44,448 bases of DNA from a virus. The stretch's first letter is position 1, and each line of letters begins with the position of its first letter. Below, piece after piece: positions 4,923 through 35,446 of this stretch. The stretch is from the IMG/VR virus record IMGVR_UViG_3300036591_000156, positions 1-44,448 of that record. One strand, given 5' to 3'. The translations under genes were made by a program, and so were the position numbers. Below the pieces are notes generated by a model. The model had not been told where the DNA came from, did not search any database, and saw only the letters and a program-made list of their open reading frames with translations.

Positions 4923-5876
4923 CTATTTCTGCGCCTGAATGCGCTCCAATGCCTTGATTATATCAAGCCTCCTATCCTCGATGACGCTCCTTAAAAACCA
5001 CTCGACGCTGTATGGTTTGCCAGATCGTACAAAGCTATCAGGCCGCGCTTCTAGGGCTACTTTGCGCAACTCATGCGCCTGAATTTCAGGTGGGGCAAAC
5101 ATGATCATTGGGCCAACGCTCACAGCTAAATCCACAAACAAACCAACACAAAAGTCCCGCAGCTCCTCGGCTTTTTTCTGAGTTGCGGAAGCTCCCAGTT
5201 GCCGCCGTTGCTGGCTCTCAGTTAAGGATCTGTAGTATGTTGAAAGCTCACCTTCGTAAGCTTTTTTGACGCAAAGCTCTTTGTAAAGTTCGCCGATCAG
5301 AAAGGCATTTTCCGGTGGAACCGGATATTCGCGGAAAAACTCAAACAATATTCGCGCTAGATACCAATCAGGCGACAGCATTCTTCCTTCATCACAAATA
5401 TCTTTAACGATTAACCATAGGGCGGTGGCCAATCTGTCTTGCTCAGCATCTTCAGCGTCTGAAAGGGTAGCTTCTGTATAAATAGGTAAGCCATCGAAGC
5501 CGACTATTTGAAAATCCTCCCACGCTTCGAGATATGCGCCCTCCCGTTGCCCTTCTGCTACCGCACCAAATGACTCGCCTGCCTTAACATCTTTAGGGAA
5601 ATACTTGGTTCCGGCAAGCGCCCTAGCGCAAACATTTATGGTGGTATTAAGATCTTTCTCAAGAGTATCGGATAGGATATAGTCAGGAATATCACAGAGG
5701 GTTTCAGCATCTTGCTCGTCGTGAAATGCCATCCAAGACGTCAGACTGCTTACACCGGCTTGAGTATGGAACTGCGCGATATGCTTCAAACCGAGAAAAT
5801 TGATTCCAGTGTCACTATTAATTAAATTTGAGTTCTTCTTTTCAAAATCACTAGCCAAAAGGGACAACCTCGCCAT
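4923..5876 (-). CDS. Hypothetical 317-aa cargo protein, AT-richer than neighbours
   Basis: I do not recognise a family. The product has 317 residues and looks soluble and mostly helical, with acidic and aromatic residues throughout; no signal peptide, cysteine motif, Walker motif or nuclease motif stands out. Its base composition and codon choice (TTT, AAA, ATA, TTA codons) are clearly more AT-rich than the integrase and replication genes on either side, which suggests separate acquisition. Its start lies 26 bp inside the end of the integrase gene, so it is likely on the integrase transcript. The slot next to an integrase is where P4-like and PICI-like elements often carry anti-phage or toxin-antitoxin cargo, so defence is a guess from position only. 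Confidence 0.75.
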   Translation of the reverse strand: MARLSLLASDFEKKNSNLINSDTGINFLGLKHIAQFHTQAGVSSLTSWMAFHDEQDAETLCDIPDYILSDTLEKDLNTTINVCARALAGTKYFPKDVKAGESFGAVAEGQREGAYLEAWEDFQIVGFDGLPIYTEATLSDAEDAEQDRLATALWLIVKDICDEGRMLSPDWYLARILFEFFREYPVPPENAFLIGELYKELCVKKAYEGELSTYYRSLTESQQRRQLGASATQKKAEELRDFCVGLFVDLAVSVGPMIMFAPPEIQAHELRKVALEARPDSFVRSGKPYSVEWFLRSVIEDRRLDIIKALERIQAQK

Positions 5877-7059
5877 TATGTGCTGATACGAACATAGACC
5901 AAAGCTCCATCAACGCCCGTCGCTTGTCCAATAAATCAGACCGAGCATAGGCCCGCTCAACATTGGACCCAATCCGGTGCGATAAGCTCATTTCCGCGAT
6001 CTCGCGCGGAACGCTGGCGACTTCGGCCGCCCAATCGCGAAACGTCGACCGAAACCCATGTACCGTGACACCCTCGGCGTCCATCCGCCGCAACAGCATG
6101 AGCATCGACATGTTGGAAAGCGGCTTATGCCGTTTCTGCCCCTCAAAAACATATTCTGATTGCAGCGCCTTCAGTGGCTCCAAGATGGCGAGCATCTCAT
6201 CCGTCAAGGGGACGCGGTGCTCCTCACCTGTTTTCATCCGTTCTTCCGGGCATGACCAAAGCCTCTGGTCAAAGTCGATTTCTGCCCAGCGCATTCCCAG
6301 AACTTCATTGGTCCGCGAGCCCGTCAGGCAGGTGAACCGCAGAGCATTAGCCGACATGGCGTCGCGCGACTTCAAGTTTGCATAGAACGCTGGAAGATCC
6401 TGCCAGCGCATCGCCTTGTGGTGCTTCGGCTTGGCTTTCACCTTTGGCAAAACCTGCGCATCCTTGATTGCCGTCACGGGGTTTTCGCCCTCACGGAAAC
6501 CTTTGGACCGCGCAACGTCCAAGACGGTTTTGATTCGCTGCGCAACACGTTTCGCCGTTTCATGCTTTTCGGTCCAGATCGGAGAGAGGCACATTAATAC
6601 TTCGGGCTGGTTGATACTATCGATCGGCATCCGGCCAATCTTGGGGAATGCATAGTCGCGCAAGGTGTTGATCCATTGCTGACCATGCTTGGCGTTTTTC
6701 CACGTAGGCATGCGTGACAGATAAACTTGCTGCGCCACTTCCTCGAACGTCGGTATCTCGCGTTTTGCATCAAAGCGGGGGTTCAGACCTTGCTGCGCCA
6801 TCCGGCGATATTCCAGTGCCCGGTCGCGTGCCTGATTGAGCGTGACGACATCCGCACCTCCCAAACCGAAGTCGGTTCGTAGCGGCGCACCCATTTTGTT
6901 CTTCTGCCCTTTCACCGTGACGCGCACGATCCAACGGCGCGCACCAGAAGGATCGACGACCAAGTGAAGGCCGTTGCCGTCCCCGTGCCGCCCAGCACCA
7001 AGGTTTTCAACTAATTTTCTCGTCAGTTTGCCGGACAGCGACATCATTCGTACCACCAT
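5851..7059 (-). CDS. int: Tyrosine recombinase/integrase (P4-type) of the tRNA-Ser element
   Basis: The 402-residue site-specific recombinase probably inserts the element at the adjacent tRNA-Ser. The N-terminal 90 residues have the DUF4102-like arm-binding pattern (GDGNGLHLVV, then RRWIVRV). A SAM-like core-binding domain spans about 100-200. The catalytic domain has R249 (TGSRTNEVLGMRW), H334-x-x-R337 (HGFRSTFRDW), H361 (LSHRIG) and the nucleophile Y371 (VERAYARSD). Length is typical for P4-type integrases. The start is uncertain within the first six residues (Met1, Met5 and Met6 are all possible). The N-terminus faces the 3' end of the tRNA about 135 bases away, the usual int-att arrangement. 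Confidence 0.93.
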   Translation of the reverse strand: MVVRMMSLSGKLTRKLVENLGAGRHGDGNGLHLVVDPSGARRWIVRVTVKGQKNKMGAPLRTDFGLGGADVVTLNQARDRALEYRRMAQQGLNPRFDAKREIPTFEEVAQQVYLSRMPTWKNAKHGQQWINTLRDYAFPKIGRMPIDSINQPEVLMCLSPIWTEKHETAKRVAQRIKTVLDVARSKGFREGENPVTAIKDAQVLPKVKAKPKHHKAMRWQDLPAFYANLKSRDAMSANALRFTCLTGSRTNEVLGMRWAEIDFDQRLWSCPEERMKTGEEHRVPLTDEMLAILEPLKALQSEYVFEGQKRHKPLSNMSMLMLLRRMDAEGVTVHGFRSTFRDWAAEVASVPREIAEMSLSHRIGSNVERAYARSDLLDKRRALMELWSMFVSAHNGEVVPFG

Positions 7060-7145
7060 TCATACCACGCAAGGAACAGATACCGACGCAATCGAAGAAA
7101 ATCCAGCGCAATCAGAGAATGCCTTTCAAGTCAGCAAAACAAAGC

Positions 7146-7168
7146 AAAAGGGCCGCCAAAGGCGACCC
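7146..7168 (-). terminator. Rho-independent terminator after tRNA-Ser
   Basis: Reading leftward, an 8-bp GC-rich stem with one G-U pair (arms 7161-7168 and 7150-7157), a 3-base loop and a run of four U follow the tRNA by about 25 bases. It lies on the element side of the integration point, so the element supplies or restores the tRNA terminator. It also separates tRNA transcription from integrase. Confidence 0.65.
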
Positions 7169-7193
7169 GGTACAAACGATCATAATGGTGGTC

Positions 7194-7219
7194 TGGCGGA
7201 GACGAAGGGATTCGAACCC
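7194..7219 (-). other. Predicted attachment site in the tRNA 3' end
   Basis: The tRNA is intact, including encoded CCA, and the P4-type integrase begins just beyond its 3' end. This is the standard arrangement when an element recombines at the T-arm/acceptor portion of a tRNA. The second copy of the core, expected left of the window, cannot be seen, so exact limits are unknown. Confidence 0.45.
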
Positions 7220-7283
7220 TCGATACCGTTTCCGGTATGCGCCCTTAGCAGGGGCGTGTATTCGACCACTCTACCACGTCTCC
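7194..7283 (-). tRNA. tRNA-Ser (anticodon GCU)
   Basis: The leftward strand folds as a class II tRNA: a 7-bp acceptor stem (7277-7283 with 7198-7204), D-arm, an anticodon stem with loop CUGCUAA giving anticodon GCU, a long variable arm with an ACCGGAAACGGT-type hairpin, a T-arm containing GGTTCGAATCC, discriminator G and encoded CCA. It decodes AGC/AGU serine codons. It is the only clear host gene in the window and marks the junction of the left element. Confidence 0.96.
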
Positions 7284-22656: not shown

Positions 22657-22677
22657 AAAAAAAGGGGCCGCAGCCCC
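22657..22677 (-). terminator. Intrinsic terminator upstream of the major tail gene
   Basis: Leftward GGGGC-TGCG-GCCCC followed by seven U, a compact Rho-independent terminator. It lies 21 bases before the major tail protein start, inside the late operon, so transcription must pass it to express the tail, lysis and SSB genes. Confidence 0.85.
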
Positions 22678-30235: not shown

Positions 30236-30318
30236 GGGAATAAAAAACCTCCGCGTTAGAGTAGAGGCGGGTAGGACGGCGCGGCGGTTTGAGGGATCCG
30301 ACCCACCCCCCGCCGCCG

Positions 30319-30804: not shown

Positions 30805-31557
30805 CTAAACGACCGACCGAACATTGCAAGGCCCGCGTGGCGCATCCGAGCGGCCAAAGCCCAAGGCCTCGGCAATATCGTCCAAGATCTGCCACGCCGC
30901 AGCGATCAAGACGCGGCTATGTTTTGAGTGCACATTCCATCCGTGCGCGGTTAAGATCTGCGCCATATCGCGGCCCTCAACGCACAACAGGATCAACATG
31001 CGAAACGCCTTAATATTAAGGCGGCCGGGCCGCTTGCGCTGCACTGTTAGGGCCACCCGCTCAGGCCCCCGGTTGACGCGGCCGTGCACCGGATCCACGG
31101 CCCACCCGTTAGCCAAGGCCTCAATCAATCGGATCCGCTCAACATGCTTAATTCGGGTGGTCACGCCGCCATCACTCAACCCGCCGCTAGTGTCGCCACC
31201 ACCACCACCACCACCGCCAGCCGCCCCTATTTGCTCATAAGACCCCGCGACAAGATCGGCAGCGATGCGGCGCGGATCATCAGACGCCAGCACCGCCAAG
31301 GCGCGCGCGCTGTTCCTAATCGCTGTTTGCGTGCCCGGTGCCGTCTTGGGCAGGGTGGCCCCGCTATCGGTCCGCTCAGTCAGGCGGTGCAGCGCCACGG
31401 GGCGCGCCGCCATGCCCAAGGGGGCACGCTCACCAGACCCGGCCCCAATGCCTTGGCGCTTGGCCCCCATGCGCGTGATGATCGCCGCATTGCGGGTTGC
31501 GAGGTAAAGGCCAGCCCGGCCCCGGTCCACAGAAGTTTGCACGTTATGCTCAGCCAT
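30805..31557 (-). CDS. Probable phage regulator/DNA-associated protein, family unknown
   Basis: The product has 250 residues from the ATG at 31557 (AGGG 8 bases before). Residues 1-110 are Ala/Arg-rich. A run of eight Gly (encoded by a GGT-repeat tract) links to a basic helical C-terminal domain (IKHVERIRLIEALANGWAV, RPGRLNIKAFRMLILLCVEG, HGWNVHSKHSRVLIAAAWQI). The basic C-terminal helices suggest DNA or RNA binding. It is the first gene after the repeat-rich noncoding segment and precedes the packaging genes, so it may control late transcription; this is inference from position. Confidence 0.7.
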   Translation of the reverse strand: MAEHNVQTSVDRGRAGLYLATRNAAIITRMGAKRQGIGAGSGERAPLGMAARPVALHRLTERTDSGATLPKTAPGTQTAIRNSARALAVLASDDPRRIAADLVAGSYEQIGAAGGGGGGGGDTSGGLSDGGVTTRIKHVERIRLIEALANGWAVDPVHGRVNRGPERVALTVQRKRPGRLNIKAFRMLILLCVEGRDMAQILTAHGWNVHSKHSRVLIAAAWQILDDIAEALGFGRSDAPRGPCNVRSVV

Positions 31558-31567
31558 TGCCAAATCC

Positions 31568-31610
31568 CTATATGTTGATGATCAAACACTATCAGCCACT
31601 ATATGTTGAT
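31568..31610. promoter_or_regulatory. Two direct repeats CTATATGTTGAT 31 bp apart
   Basis: Identical 12-mers start at 31568 and 31599, three helical turns apart, immediately upstream of the 250-residue gene's start. Equal-face spacing suggests cooperative protein binding, such as an activator or autorepressor site. Confidence 0.55.
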
Positions 31611-31617
31611 AACCTTT

Positions 31618-31880
31618 AGGGATTAATAATTAACTAGGGATTAATAAGGGATTAATAAGGGATTAGAAATAAAGAGCTAACTTATTGAAAGTAAACGCAA
31701 GATCACAGTAATGGGATCAACGGGACTAATATTCACGCCTTACATATAACAAATCACAACGCCGCCCCCCGCACCCCTTTGCGTAATACAGAAGAACCCC
31801 AACCCTAGTCCCTTTAATCCCTAAGCCCGATTTTCAGCCCGTAACCCCCTGCAATCTATGCGAAATCACTTAGGGATTAA
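31618..31880. repeat. Iteron-like AGGGATTAA repeat cluster
   Basis: AGGGATTAATAA occurs at 31618-31629, 31636-31647 and 31647-31658, with a partial fourth copy from 31658; the last three have 11-base periodicity. A further inverted copy lies at 31814-31822 and a direct copy at 31872-31880. The array is AT-rich and follows the replication genes, as iteron origins often do. Confidence 0.7.
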
Positions 31881-32010
31881 CACTATCCGTTGACCGCTTA
31901 GCGGGACTAGTGGAACTTTTCATAGGGGGGGGTGCGGGGTGGAAGGGTGCGCAAAAGCCAGAGAGGCGCGCAGAAAGACAGGGCCGCGTGCGCGGATAAG
32001 GGAAAGGGCA

Positions 32011-32173
32011 TAGAGCCGCCCTAGTCGGGCGGCAAGAGCGGCCCAATGGGGCCGCCTCGGCAGCGCCGCGCACCATATTGGCCGGGCCGCGTGGATCTAA
32101 GGGGGGATTTGTAGAGCCGCCCTAGTCGGGCGGCAAGGCGGCCCGCCGGGGCCGCCTCGGCAAGCGCCGCGCG
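32011..32173. repeat. Two tandem copies of a double-hairpin element
   Basis: Two related segments of about 62 bases (32011-32072 and 32112-32173) each fold into two GC-rich stem-loops. One stem (GCCGCCC with GGGCGGC, 5-base loop) is identical in both. In the other the stem is kept while the loop changes (AATG versus GCCG). In the right copy the two hairpins are separated by one nucleotide. No U-run follows in either direction. Structure conservation implies function in RNA. Confidence 0.7.
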
Positions 32174-32211
32174 CCCTCTTGATCGGGGGCGCGCAGATTA
32201 AGCCAGGACGA

Positions 32212-32490
32212 TTAAATCAGGGACTTTTGCGCCGCACTTTTGCGCGGGGTGCGGGGCCGAGGCGCGGCCGGATCCGCAGCGGGCCGAGGCGGCGGCATGG
32301 CGGGTTTAAGCGCCGCCAATTTGGCATCGCCTTGCGCCTTGCACGCGGGATCCGCGCAGGCGCGCCAAGGGCGTTGCCCCGGCTTCAGCGCGCGCGCCCC
32401 GCCGGGCGGTTGGAAGCCAAACGGCGCGGGCCGCGCACCGCAGGCGTCACAAGGCCCGAGCGGGCGCGGTGCGGCCTTGGGCGCGGCCAT
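32212..32490 (-). CDS. Small zinc-ribbon protein next to the helicase gene
   Basis: The product has 92 residues with C-x2-C (PCDACG, near residues 14-17) and C-x4-C (ACADPAC, near 45-50), a plausible zinc-binding ribbon, then a Pro/Arg-rich basic tail. Its ATG overlaps the helicase stop by one base (TGATG). It may bind nucleic acid or a replication partner. No family recognised. Confidence 0.65.
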   Translation of the reverse strand: MAAPKAAPRPLGPCDACGARPAPFGFQPPGGARALKPGQRPWRACADPACKAQGDAKLAALKPAMPPPRPAADPAAPRPRTPRKSAAQKSLI

Positions 32491-34325
32491 CAGCCCTTGC
32501 GCCCGGCAGCGGCGCGCAAGGCATCGCCATACTCGGCCACGCGATCAAAGGCCGCTTGTGAAATCGTGATCCCGCGATAGCCGGTGTCGGACACCTTGGC
32601 GGGCGTGTAGACGTGGCCGCTTGGCCCCTTCATTGCCCCGGACCGCGCCTTGAGGCCGTTTGCAACCGTCCGCTTGCCCCAAGCCGCCTCACCACTCGAC
32701 AACAGATAGGCGTTGAAGGCATCGCCCAAATCGCGGCCCGTCACAAAATTGTTAGGGTTGCCGTCAATATCGCATTCCTCAGTCAAAAACACGCGCAGGG
32801 GATCGCTATCCTTGCGATATTCCTCAGTTGCGGCGCGCACCGCATCGGGTTGGCGCAGGCCGCCCGCGAGATAATCAAGGCACCCCTGCACCATCCACGC
32901 AAAAATCCCATCGCGTTCCGCCCATAGCTTTTCGGTTAGCCCTTCATCCACGTCCGCCTCAGCAATTTGCACATCAAAGGGCACCAGCATCACGCGCCGC
33001 CATATCCCATCATCAGCGCCCCGGATTTCGGGCTTGTGGTTTCCCGAAATTGTCAATTTGAACTCGGGCACGATTTCCACGAACTCTTGTTGCATCCGGC
33101 GGATCATAATGGCTTCACCGCCGGTCAGGGCCTTGATTAGCGCCTCTTTCATGCGCTGGCCTTGTTCCGGCTCAGAGGCGCGCGCCATGCGGGCACCGGG
33201 CAGGCGGACAAGATCGGGCGTTGCGTCCGATCCTTTGCGCTGTTCCGTGCCGGTCAGCGTTTCGATTGGGATCGTGGTGCCATAATCGGCCATGATCCGG
33301 GCAATCGTATCCACAAGGGTGGACTTGCCGTTGCGGCCGCCACCAAAGAAAAACGCCAACTTTTGTTCCGTCTTAATCCCGGTGATTGTCAGGCCGAACC
33401 ACCGTTGCAGATATCCGCGCACCTCGGGATCCGGCTGGATTGTTTCTAGAAATGCCTCAAAATTGGGGCAAGTTGCGGCCGGGTTGTAATCGGCAAGCAT
33501 CATCTTGCTAATCAGGTGCCGCCGGTCATGTGGCAGTTGATCGACGCGCCACACCGGGGCCGCATCGCCCCACGCCGCATCATGCGGATCTAGGGCCTTG
33601 GTGAATTGCAGAACACCGGTTTGGCAGCAGACCATCATCGGATCCGCGTTCAGCGCGTCCACCGTTGTGGCGGCAGTCACTTTGACCTCTTGCAGCATGT
33701 TGCTAATTTTGGACGTGTTGCCGGTGGCCTTGGCGTGGCCCCGGTGCGCGGCCTTGGCTTTTTGAAGCCGCTCAGACACGCCTTGTCCGTTGCGGCGGAT
33801 TTCACGCAAAGCCGCAAGGCGCTCGCGTTGTTCGTCCGTTGGATCTTTGACCTTTTCTAAATCGGCCAATTCGGGCCGCGTGGCCACAAATAGATCAAGC
33901 GCATCGGTTTCCCATTCCTCTATGGCGATGTGATCCACCTCTAGCAAGATTTTGGCCGCGATTTGCTGCGCATCGCGCCGCACGTCCAATTCATCCTCAT
34001 CAGAACGCCAGATCTTGCCGCCCCACCGATACCAGCCGAGGCGGGGCACCAAGAGAATGTTTTCGCCATAATGCGCCATCAGGCGTTGCCCGTTGCCGTA
34101 GTCATTCAGCGGAAAGGCGGCGCAGCGATCTAGCAGATCATCAGGCGCGGCCGGATCCAGCCCGGCGCGCCACGCGTCAGGATCTTGATCTAGGCCCGCA
34201 TCAAAATCGGCATCATCGCCCCGATCATCGCCCCGATCATCGCCCGGATCTTGCGGGGTGGCGGCATCATCGTCCGTCACGGTTTCGGCGCTATCAAACG
34301 CCCGGCGGATTGCAGATGCACTCAT
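32490..34325 (-). CDS. P4/D5-type phage replicative helicase
   Basis: The product has 611 residues. An acidic N-terminal region (about 15-50, many Asp) is followed by a D5_N-like domain. The SF3-type helicase has Walker A FFFGGGRNGKST (about 326-336), Walker B-like region VEIVPEFKLTISGNHKP with the sensor Asn, and IRGADDGIWRRVMLVPFDV typical of the P4 family C-terminus. It unwinds phage DNA at the origin. ATGA overlap with the primase gene shows they are translated together. Confidence 0.92.
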   Translation of the reverse strand: MSASAIRRAFDSAETVTDDDAATPQDPGDDRGDDRGDDADFDAGLDQDPDAWRAGLDPAAPDDLLDRCAAFPLNDYGNGQRLMAHYGENILLVPRLGWYRWGGKIWRSDEDELDVRRDAQQIAAKILLEVDHIAIEEWETDALDLFVATRPELADLEKVKDPTDEQRERLAALREIRRNGQGVSERLQKAKAAHRGHAKATGNTSKISNMLQEVKVTAATTVDALNADPMMVCCQTGVLQFTKALDPHDAAWGDAAPVWRVDQLPHDRRHLISKMMLADYNPAATCPNFEAFLETIQPDPEVRGYLQRWFGLTITGIKTEQKLAFFFGGGRNGKSTLVDTIARIMADYGTTIPIETLTGTEQRKGSDATPDLVRLPGARMARASEPEQGQRMKEALIKALTGGEAIMIRRMQQEFVEIVPEFKLTISGNHKPEIRGADDGIWRRVMLVPFDVQIAEADVDEGLTEKLWAERDGIFAWMVQGCLDYLAGGLRQPDAVRAATEEYRKDSDPLRVFLTEECDIDGNPNNFVTGRDLGDAFNAYLLSSGEAAWGKRTVANGLKARSGAMKGPSGHVYTPAKVSDTGYRGITISQAAFDRVAEYGDALRAAAGRKG

Positions 34326-35446
34326 TGCGCGGCCCCTTTATTTTCGATTTCAATTTTTCGGGCCAGATCATTCAGATCCACGCCCGCGCCGGGGTGGACG
34401 ATCTGCCCCACCAATCCGGGCCGCACCGATTGCGCGCGCCGGATCCCGGCCATCAGCTTGGCGCGGGTTGGCCCGGCCGCACTGTCACCGTCTTGGATAA
34501 ACACCAGCCGCGACACATCGGCGGGCGGGATCCACGCCCGATCATCGGCCAGATCTGGCAATCCGCTATCGCGGGTGCCGGGCACCTTGATTTGACGGCC
34601 CGACATATTGCCAAGATCCACAAGCGCCCAATAGGCGGCACCGGGCACCACATCGAAGGTCACGGCCGTGGCGGTTGTCTCAAGGCCTTCACCCGCGACC
34701 ATCACGCCCGTTTTGCCCATTGGCGTTAGGCGGATTGCGCCGCCCTTTTTGGATCCGCGCACCATCTTGGCAGGCATCGCCGCGCCGTCCCAAAAGATTT
34801 CGGCCTTTTCGCCCGGCAGATCCGGGTTGATCCATGTTTGGTGCACGGCCGTAATGTGGCCGTGCGCGTCTTGGATCGCCGCGATCATGGCCGGGCCAGT
34901 GTGCATCACCCGCTGCGCGCCGTCCGCGTGTTTGCGGTAGGGGTGCGCCGCGATGTAGCGCAGCGTTGGGGGGAAATATCCAAAGCGGATCCCGCGCCCG
35001 GCCAAATAGGCATCAACAGGTGATCCGGCGGCCTCTTGCGCCGCGTGCCAAATGCCGCGCCCCTCGGCCACGGACCGGGCGCGCAGGGTGGCGGCCGTAT
35101 CGGCGCGCCGTTGCTCAGAGGCGCGGGCCTTTTCAATGCGGCGGGCCATTTCGGCCGGATCCACTTGCACATCCGCGTCACCGGCCAGATAGGCCAGCGC
35201 GGCGCGAAAATCGCACGCTAGGACGTGCTGCACCAAGGCCAGACCGTCACCGCCTGCGCCGGTGCACAATCGGCACACAAAGACGCCCAATTGCGGGTTG
35301 ATCCCAAAGCGATCCTTGCCGCCGCACACCGGGCAAGGCCCGACGCGTTCACCCCCGGCGGGTTTGAGGCCTTCAATGCCGAGCCGGTCCGCAACCTCAA
35401 GGATTGGGATCGCCTTGGCCAAAGCGAGGCGGCCATCATCACGCAT
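34322..35446 (-). CDS. CHC2/Toprim phage primase
   Basis: The product has 374 residues. A CHC2-like zinc finger is formed by C38, C41, C58 and C61 (CPVCGGKDRF and CRLC). The Toprim catalytic signature is GEGLETT (252-258) and IQDGDSA (D319-D321). It synthesises primers for phage replication and works with the following helicase. The P4 alpha protein has both activities in one chain, whereas here they are split into two overlapping genes. It overlaps the winged-helix gene by 8 bp. Confidence 0.92.
   Translation of the reverse strand: MRDDGRLALAKAIPILEVADRLGIEGLKPAGGERVGPCPVCGGKDRFGINPQLGVFVCRLCTGAGGDGLALVQHVLACDFRAALAYLAGDADVQVDPAEMARRIEKARASEQRRADTAATLRARSVAEGRGIWHAAQEAAGSPVDAYLAGRGIRFGYFPPTLRYIAAHPYRKHADGAQRVMHTGPAMIAAIQDAHGHITAVHQTWINPDLPGEKAEIFWDGAAMPAKMVRGSKKGGAIRLTPMGKTGVMVAGEGLETTATAVTFDVVPGAAYWALVDLGNMSGRQIKVPGTRDSGLPDLADDRAWIPPADVSRLVFIQDGDSAAGPTRAKLMAGIRRAQSVRPGLVGQIVHPGAGVDLNDLARKIEIENKGAAQ

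Follow-up and report, generated by a model that had tools for sequence, protein, structure and literature searches.

GC-rich palindromes of the REP/BIME type stand in tandem at operon ends and can protect mRNA. Rut sites lie in untranslated RNA that is rich in C and poor in G, and 3' ends made by Rho are trimmed by 3'-to-5' exonucleases (PMC7815308). The closest functional precedent for the element described here is terGTA of the Caulobacter crescentus GTA, a terminator proven in a reporter, which consists of three direct repeats, each GC-rich and 150 bp long, that contain imperfect inverted repeats (PMC11150451). Paired hairpins are also known from the put RNA of HK022, in which two stem-loops (stems of ~32 and 36 nt, ~70 nt in all) are joined by a short linker and contain internal loops, a triplex and a G35-A9 pair (PMC9378689).

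The tandem double hairpin reported here was found in a virus record of 44,448 bases, analysed over its full length (the window), whose genes run nearly all leftward. It occupies a gene-free gap of 648 bp (31564-32211) between the replication operon on the early side and the packaging and late genes (HNH endonuclease, terminase large subunit, portal, major head protein). The features are collected in Table 1. On the leftward strand each of the two copies (32015-32056 and 32116-32157, ~41 nt each and ~100 nt apart) starts with hairpin 1, whose loop varies, and continues over a 1-4 nt linker into hairpin 2 with the loop GACTA. The copies are also visible as two pairs of direct repeats, both spaced 100-101, namely 32011-32036/32112-32137 (26 nt, 100% identity) and 32038-32062/32138-32162 (25 nt, 88% identity). 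An earlier note on this DNA had described paired-hairpin repeats at these positions, with one hairpin identical in both copies and a single nucleotide between the hairpins of the right copy; all of this was borne out, the linker being 1 nt (32135) in the right copy and 4 nt in the left one. Its placing of the site at the head of the late operon has to be corrected, as the site is more accurately the tail of the early operon.

Table 1. Positions of the hairpins and neighbouring features in the window
Feature	Position	Strand	Remarks
Primase	34322-35446	leftward	early side
D5-type primase/helicase	32490..34325	-	early operon
Last early gene in the window	32212..32490	-	92 aa, CxxC zinc-finger-like
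Third GC-rich hairpin, just 5' of copy 1	32167..32196	-	also in L003; degenerate ahead of copy 2
Hairpin 1, copy 1 (upstream copy in transcript order)	32136..32157	-	9 bp perfect; loop CGGC (GCCG on + strand)
Hairpin 2, copy 1	32116..32134	-	7 bp perfect; invariant pentaloop GACTA (TAGTC on + strand)
Hairpin 1, copy 2	32037..32056	-	7 bp (32038-32055) plus G-T pair; loop CATT (AATG on + strand)
Hairpin 2, copy 2	32015..32033	-	7 bp perfect; identical to hairpin 2 of copy 1; loop GACTA
C-rich, G-poor block directly 3' of the hairpins	31925..32002	-	top C-minus-G 78-nt window of the whole - strand; putatively rut-like
Conserved iteron block	31564..31920	-	TTAATCCCT/TAGTCCCG iterons, four at 31619-31666, three of these 11 bp apart; probable late promoter near 31570-31620
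First gene past the region	30805..31563	-	252 aa; kept in all relatives examined; C-terminal three-helix (helix-turn-helix-like) segment
Intrinsic terminator within the late operon	22664..22677	-	conserved in L003 and L009

When the whole window was scanned for two perfect hairpins of at least 7 bp lying no more than 6 nt apart, these two sites alone were found. The 60 first-order Markov sequences used as a control held a mean of 0.1 such hairpin pairs, and two close pairs occurred in 0 of the 60. Folding of the leftward strand, a check that the earlier note had proposed, gave a stability of z = -3.4 against dinucleotide shuffles, and the homologous region of a relative (L005, see below) gave z = -3.1. 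The element had no Rfam match at the gathering score, the sole match of the window being a tRNA.

Outside the window, the exact hairpin 2 was found in one other viral contig, IMGVR_UViG_3300022833_000028 (L003), which shares ~97% DNA identity over the region. A more distant relative of ~75% identity, IMGVR_UViG_3300037296_000240 (L005), carries the same tandem pair in the same place with a spacing of 99 nt. In transcript order its first copy reads GGGCGCGC-TGGG-GCGCGCCT / GTGCCCC-GACTA-GGGGCAC and its second GGGCGCGC-TGGC-GCGCGCCC / GTGGCCC-GACTA-GGGCCAC. Among the five distinct copies of these three phages, placed in a hand register by stem centres that was our choice (MAFFT opens a gap in the first hairpin of L005), both partners have changed in 6 of 15 stem pairs, one has changed on one side (G-C to G-T), eight are unchanged and none is broken. 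The GACTA loop and the closing CCC/GGG are the most constant part of the five copies, and the loop of hairpin 1 varies. Since the changes are compensatory without broken pairs, and the GACTA loop is constant while the hairpin 1 loop changes, a single-stranded structure is very probably under selection. The covariation among homologues that the earlier note had asked about is thus present, and its view that RNA structure is selected while the loop of the other hairpin changes holds up; such changes are compatible with single-stranded DNA as well as with RNA.

The element is real, structured and rare. Its carriers, which belong to the Rhodobacter group, amount to three related phages in two lineages only. 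A covariance model of the element, run over 69 loci (786 kb), gave E < 0.09 only in the window, L003/L004/L088 and L005, the next match having an E of 0.1. Searches of viral contigs with exact hairpin and tandem-loop patterns returned only the two relatives, besides unrelated chance matches and other repeats, and the same tandem pattern occurred in none of 395 family genomes. Another contig, L091 (IMGVR_UViG_3300013383_000367), holds seven dispersed repeats of ~65 nt with two hairpins (GGCCC..GGGCC and AGCGC..GCGCT), which are unrelated to the element.

The last gene before the hairpins differs by phage, being the 92-aa zinc-finger-like ORF in the window, a methyltransferase in L003 and a 79-aa ORF in L005, and the hairpins stay. 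In L003 a phage N6-adenine methyltransferase gene, whose similarity to TIGR01712 is below the cut-off, sits between the 92-aa-type gene and the hairpins; the window, else near-identical to L003, lacks at 32200-32215 the N6-adenine methyltransferase gene that is present there in L003 and L005. On the other side of the gap, the 252-aa protein had no match in Pfam, NCBIfam, PHROG and PDB searches. Its predicted model is of low confidence (pLDDT 67), and the sole structural match in BFVD was a weak one (E 0.009) to a 172-aa protein of RcRhea. Elsewhere in the window (5851-7283) an integrase gene adjoins tRNA-Ser(gct), and the L006 contig ends within the same tRNA, which suggests an attachment site there.

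In 12 of 15 relatives the counterpart of the C-rich stretch that follows the hairpins ranks highest in C-minus-G at the locus, as it does in the part of RcCronus that was analysed; L104, Pthi1 and RcapNL have a weak one. Most relatives carry such a stretch, and in some an ordinary intrinsic terminator lies next to it. The stretch opens a conserved block, shared by 13 phages and prophages including the window, which ends at the start of a gene of ~250 aa common to all of them; the hairpins fall outside this block. The sequence shared just 5' of the start codon of the ~250-aa gene is conserved and resembles a promoter, which would lie ~380-450 nt past the hairpins, so that late transcription probably starts ~400 nt after them. 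The iteron module itself (window 31564-31920; L005, L006, L096-L109, Pthi1 (L111) and RcapNL (L112/L113)) has a fixed layout: three iterons spaced by 11-12 bp stand close to the promoter, and there are inverted-repeat arms 10-21 nt long, in many cases at about -275/-175. Its sequence is phage-specific (TTAATCCCT, TCAATCCCT, CTACTCCCG, TCGATCCCG, CTGATCCCA, CTGCACTT, TGCGTCCCT), a pattern that suggests a rapidly diversifying DNA-binding specificity. In the window, CCCCGCACCCC (31925-31950, in the C-rich block) and GGGGTGCGGGG (~31770, in the iteron block) form an inverted pair that flanks the first half of the iteron block and is accompanied by G-quadruplex-like runs.

We propose, at what we regard as an even chance, that the tandem double hairpins are a structured RNA forming the 3'-end module of the early (replication) operon, with Rho-type termination in the C-rich stretch and a hairpin-capped RNA end. 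It draws on the C-rich stretch and on several relatives without the element that carry ordinary terminators or GC hairpins at the same boundary (among them L098, L102 and, as the clearest case, L006 with 12 bp followed by eight T). After clearing the last early gene, the leftward RNA polymerase would transcribe the hairpins and reach the C-rich, G-poor stretch, where Rho would most likely load and halt transcription before the polymerase gets to the iteron block and late promoter. Shortened in this way, the early message would carry the stable hairpins as a cap against 3'-to-5' exonucleases; the hairpins may additionally cause the polymerase to pause. In favour of such a role, the structure covaries in three phages and keeps its place with a different last gene ahead of it in each. 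The invariant GACTA loop is not explained by a plain terminator or cap, and its constancy suggests an additional binding partner for the GACUA of the RNA. Moreover, the composition of the C-rich block may serve another purpose, since CCCCGCACCCC pairs with GGGGTGCGGGG in the iteron block. Classical intrinsic termination was also considered and rejected; GC hairpins are present, but a U-tract is absent 3' of every copy, and the terminator listing is empty at the site.

Among described systems, Rho-dependent terminators with exonuclease-trimmed ends share with this locus the C-rich, G-poor untranslated stretch, here 31925-32002, and an RNA end expected at a stable hairpin, whereas such terminators do not normally include tandem double hairpins with a constant loop. 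Like the element, terGTA is non-coding, consists of tandem GC-rich direct repeats holding inverted repeats and belongs to an alphaproteobacterial phage-like cluster. It differs in having three 150-bp repeats, which GafZ bypasses and which lie 3' of the first late gene, whereas the element has two ~100-bp repeats that would end the early operon; it is a precedent for function, likened by description, and not a demonstrated homologue. REP/BIME-type hairpins are likewise tandem GC-rich palindromes, but the element is not dispersed and has only two copies in the window.

The earlier note had read the hairpins as a put-like antitermination RNA, in which the nascent hairpins would bind RNA polymerase and make it ignore the terminators of the late operon. 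HK022 put RNA suppresses termination by way of the zinc-binding domain in the beta-prime subunit of the polymerase. The two adjacent hairpins with their 1-4 nt linker and the selection on their structure fit such a role, and the intrinsic-terminator-like sites that the note had pointed to in the downstream operon do exist (22677-22664 and 11822-11797), the first of them conserved in two relatives. The resemblance to HK022 put goes little beyond that, however, as the put RNAs have long stems with internal loops and a triplex, whereas the hairpins of the element are 18-22 nt long and perfectly paired, with ~41 nt in total. When putL and putR were located in HK022 from the published numbering and a covariance model was built from both, the model recovered its own puts at E<1e-22 and gave no match to the element, and the local alignment of putL with the element scored 20 against a shuffled mean of 20.9. 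Furthermore, puts sit downstream of early promoters, whereas the element follows the last early gene and precedes the probable late promoter, from which the iteron block separates it, so late transcripts starting at that promoter would lack it, and near relatives with the same late-operon layout do without it. We therefore consider a put-like function very unlikely; the conserved terminator at 22664 leaves room for some antitermination, but nothing links antitermination to the hairpins. Somewhat less improbable, though still unlikely, is a regulatory or protein-binding RNA whose GACUA loops are recognised by an RNA-binding protein, from either phage or host, or base-pair with the CUAGUC of the iteron block, and which controls read-through or gives rise to a small RNA. 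It would explain why GACTA and its closing CCC/GGG are most constant next to a variable loop, and CTAGTC, complementary to GACTAG, is kept in the iteron block ~110 nt downstream of the hairpins in all three phages. But CTAGTC can also be read as a variant of the iteron, it is no rarity for five loop bases to stay constant by chance at ~67-75% identity, so that the constant loop alone is weak evidence at such divergence, and the RNA has no Rfam match and occurs in two lineages only. A similarly low probability is given to a new class of cis-acting phage RNA, in which tandem double hairpins with a constant GACUA pentaloop would be bound by a factor of the phage or the host and would determine whether polymerase leaving the early operon goes on across the iteron region to the late operon.

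The hairpins might instead act in DNA, extruding in single strands beside an iteron origin as loading sites for primase or helicase, like the ssi sites beside plasmid iterons. Their position next to the conserved iteron block, with the D5 helicase/primase and primase genes just upstream, would suit this role, as would the compensatory changes, which single-stranded DNA explains equally well. Yet the GC skew is unchanged at the site, nearly all relatives keep the iterons without the hairpins, and the iterons are a putative origin only, so this explanation too is rather improbable. GC-rich palindromes can self-correct, and the element could accordingly be a set of functionless palindromes, their arms kept perfect by template switching during replication and their copies made by duplication; its absence from many relatives would agree with this. 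Against it, both copies and their hairpins persist with fixed order, spacing and loop between lineages ~25% diverged, in which flanks and last genes turn over, and we regard the absence of selection as quite unlikely. That the hairpin region is the packaging (cos) site is the least probable explanation, with hardly any weight left to it. The region is intergenic, repeated and near the terminase genes, and the RcapNL record, which has the same 26 nt at both ends, annotates cohesive ends in the iteron region, with the primase on one side and the 252-aa gene homologue on the other. A later paper lists RcapNL as circularly permuted, and the ends determined for RcCronus, with a 13-base 5' overhang, lie directly before its small terminase gene (PMC8601537). 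The ends of several independent contigs likewise coincide with a GGAGA-T7 motif immediately ahead of the small terminase gene. Judged from these relatives, a cos site at the hairpins was rejected. The cos of the window is probably located near 30240-30275, just 5' of its small terminase gene, given these contig ends and those of RcCronus.

The element provides a clean, testable boundary between early and late genes in a little-studied group of alphaproteobacterial temperate phages, with a striking iteron module next to it. Should the role of the hairpins be limited to ending the early message, they would represent an unusual structured 3' end of the Rho type; if the constant loop has a partner, they would constitute a new phage RNA control element.
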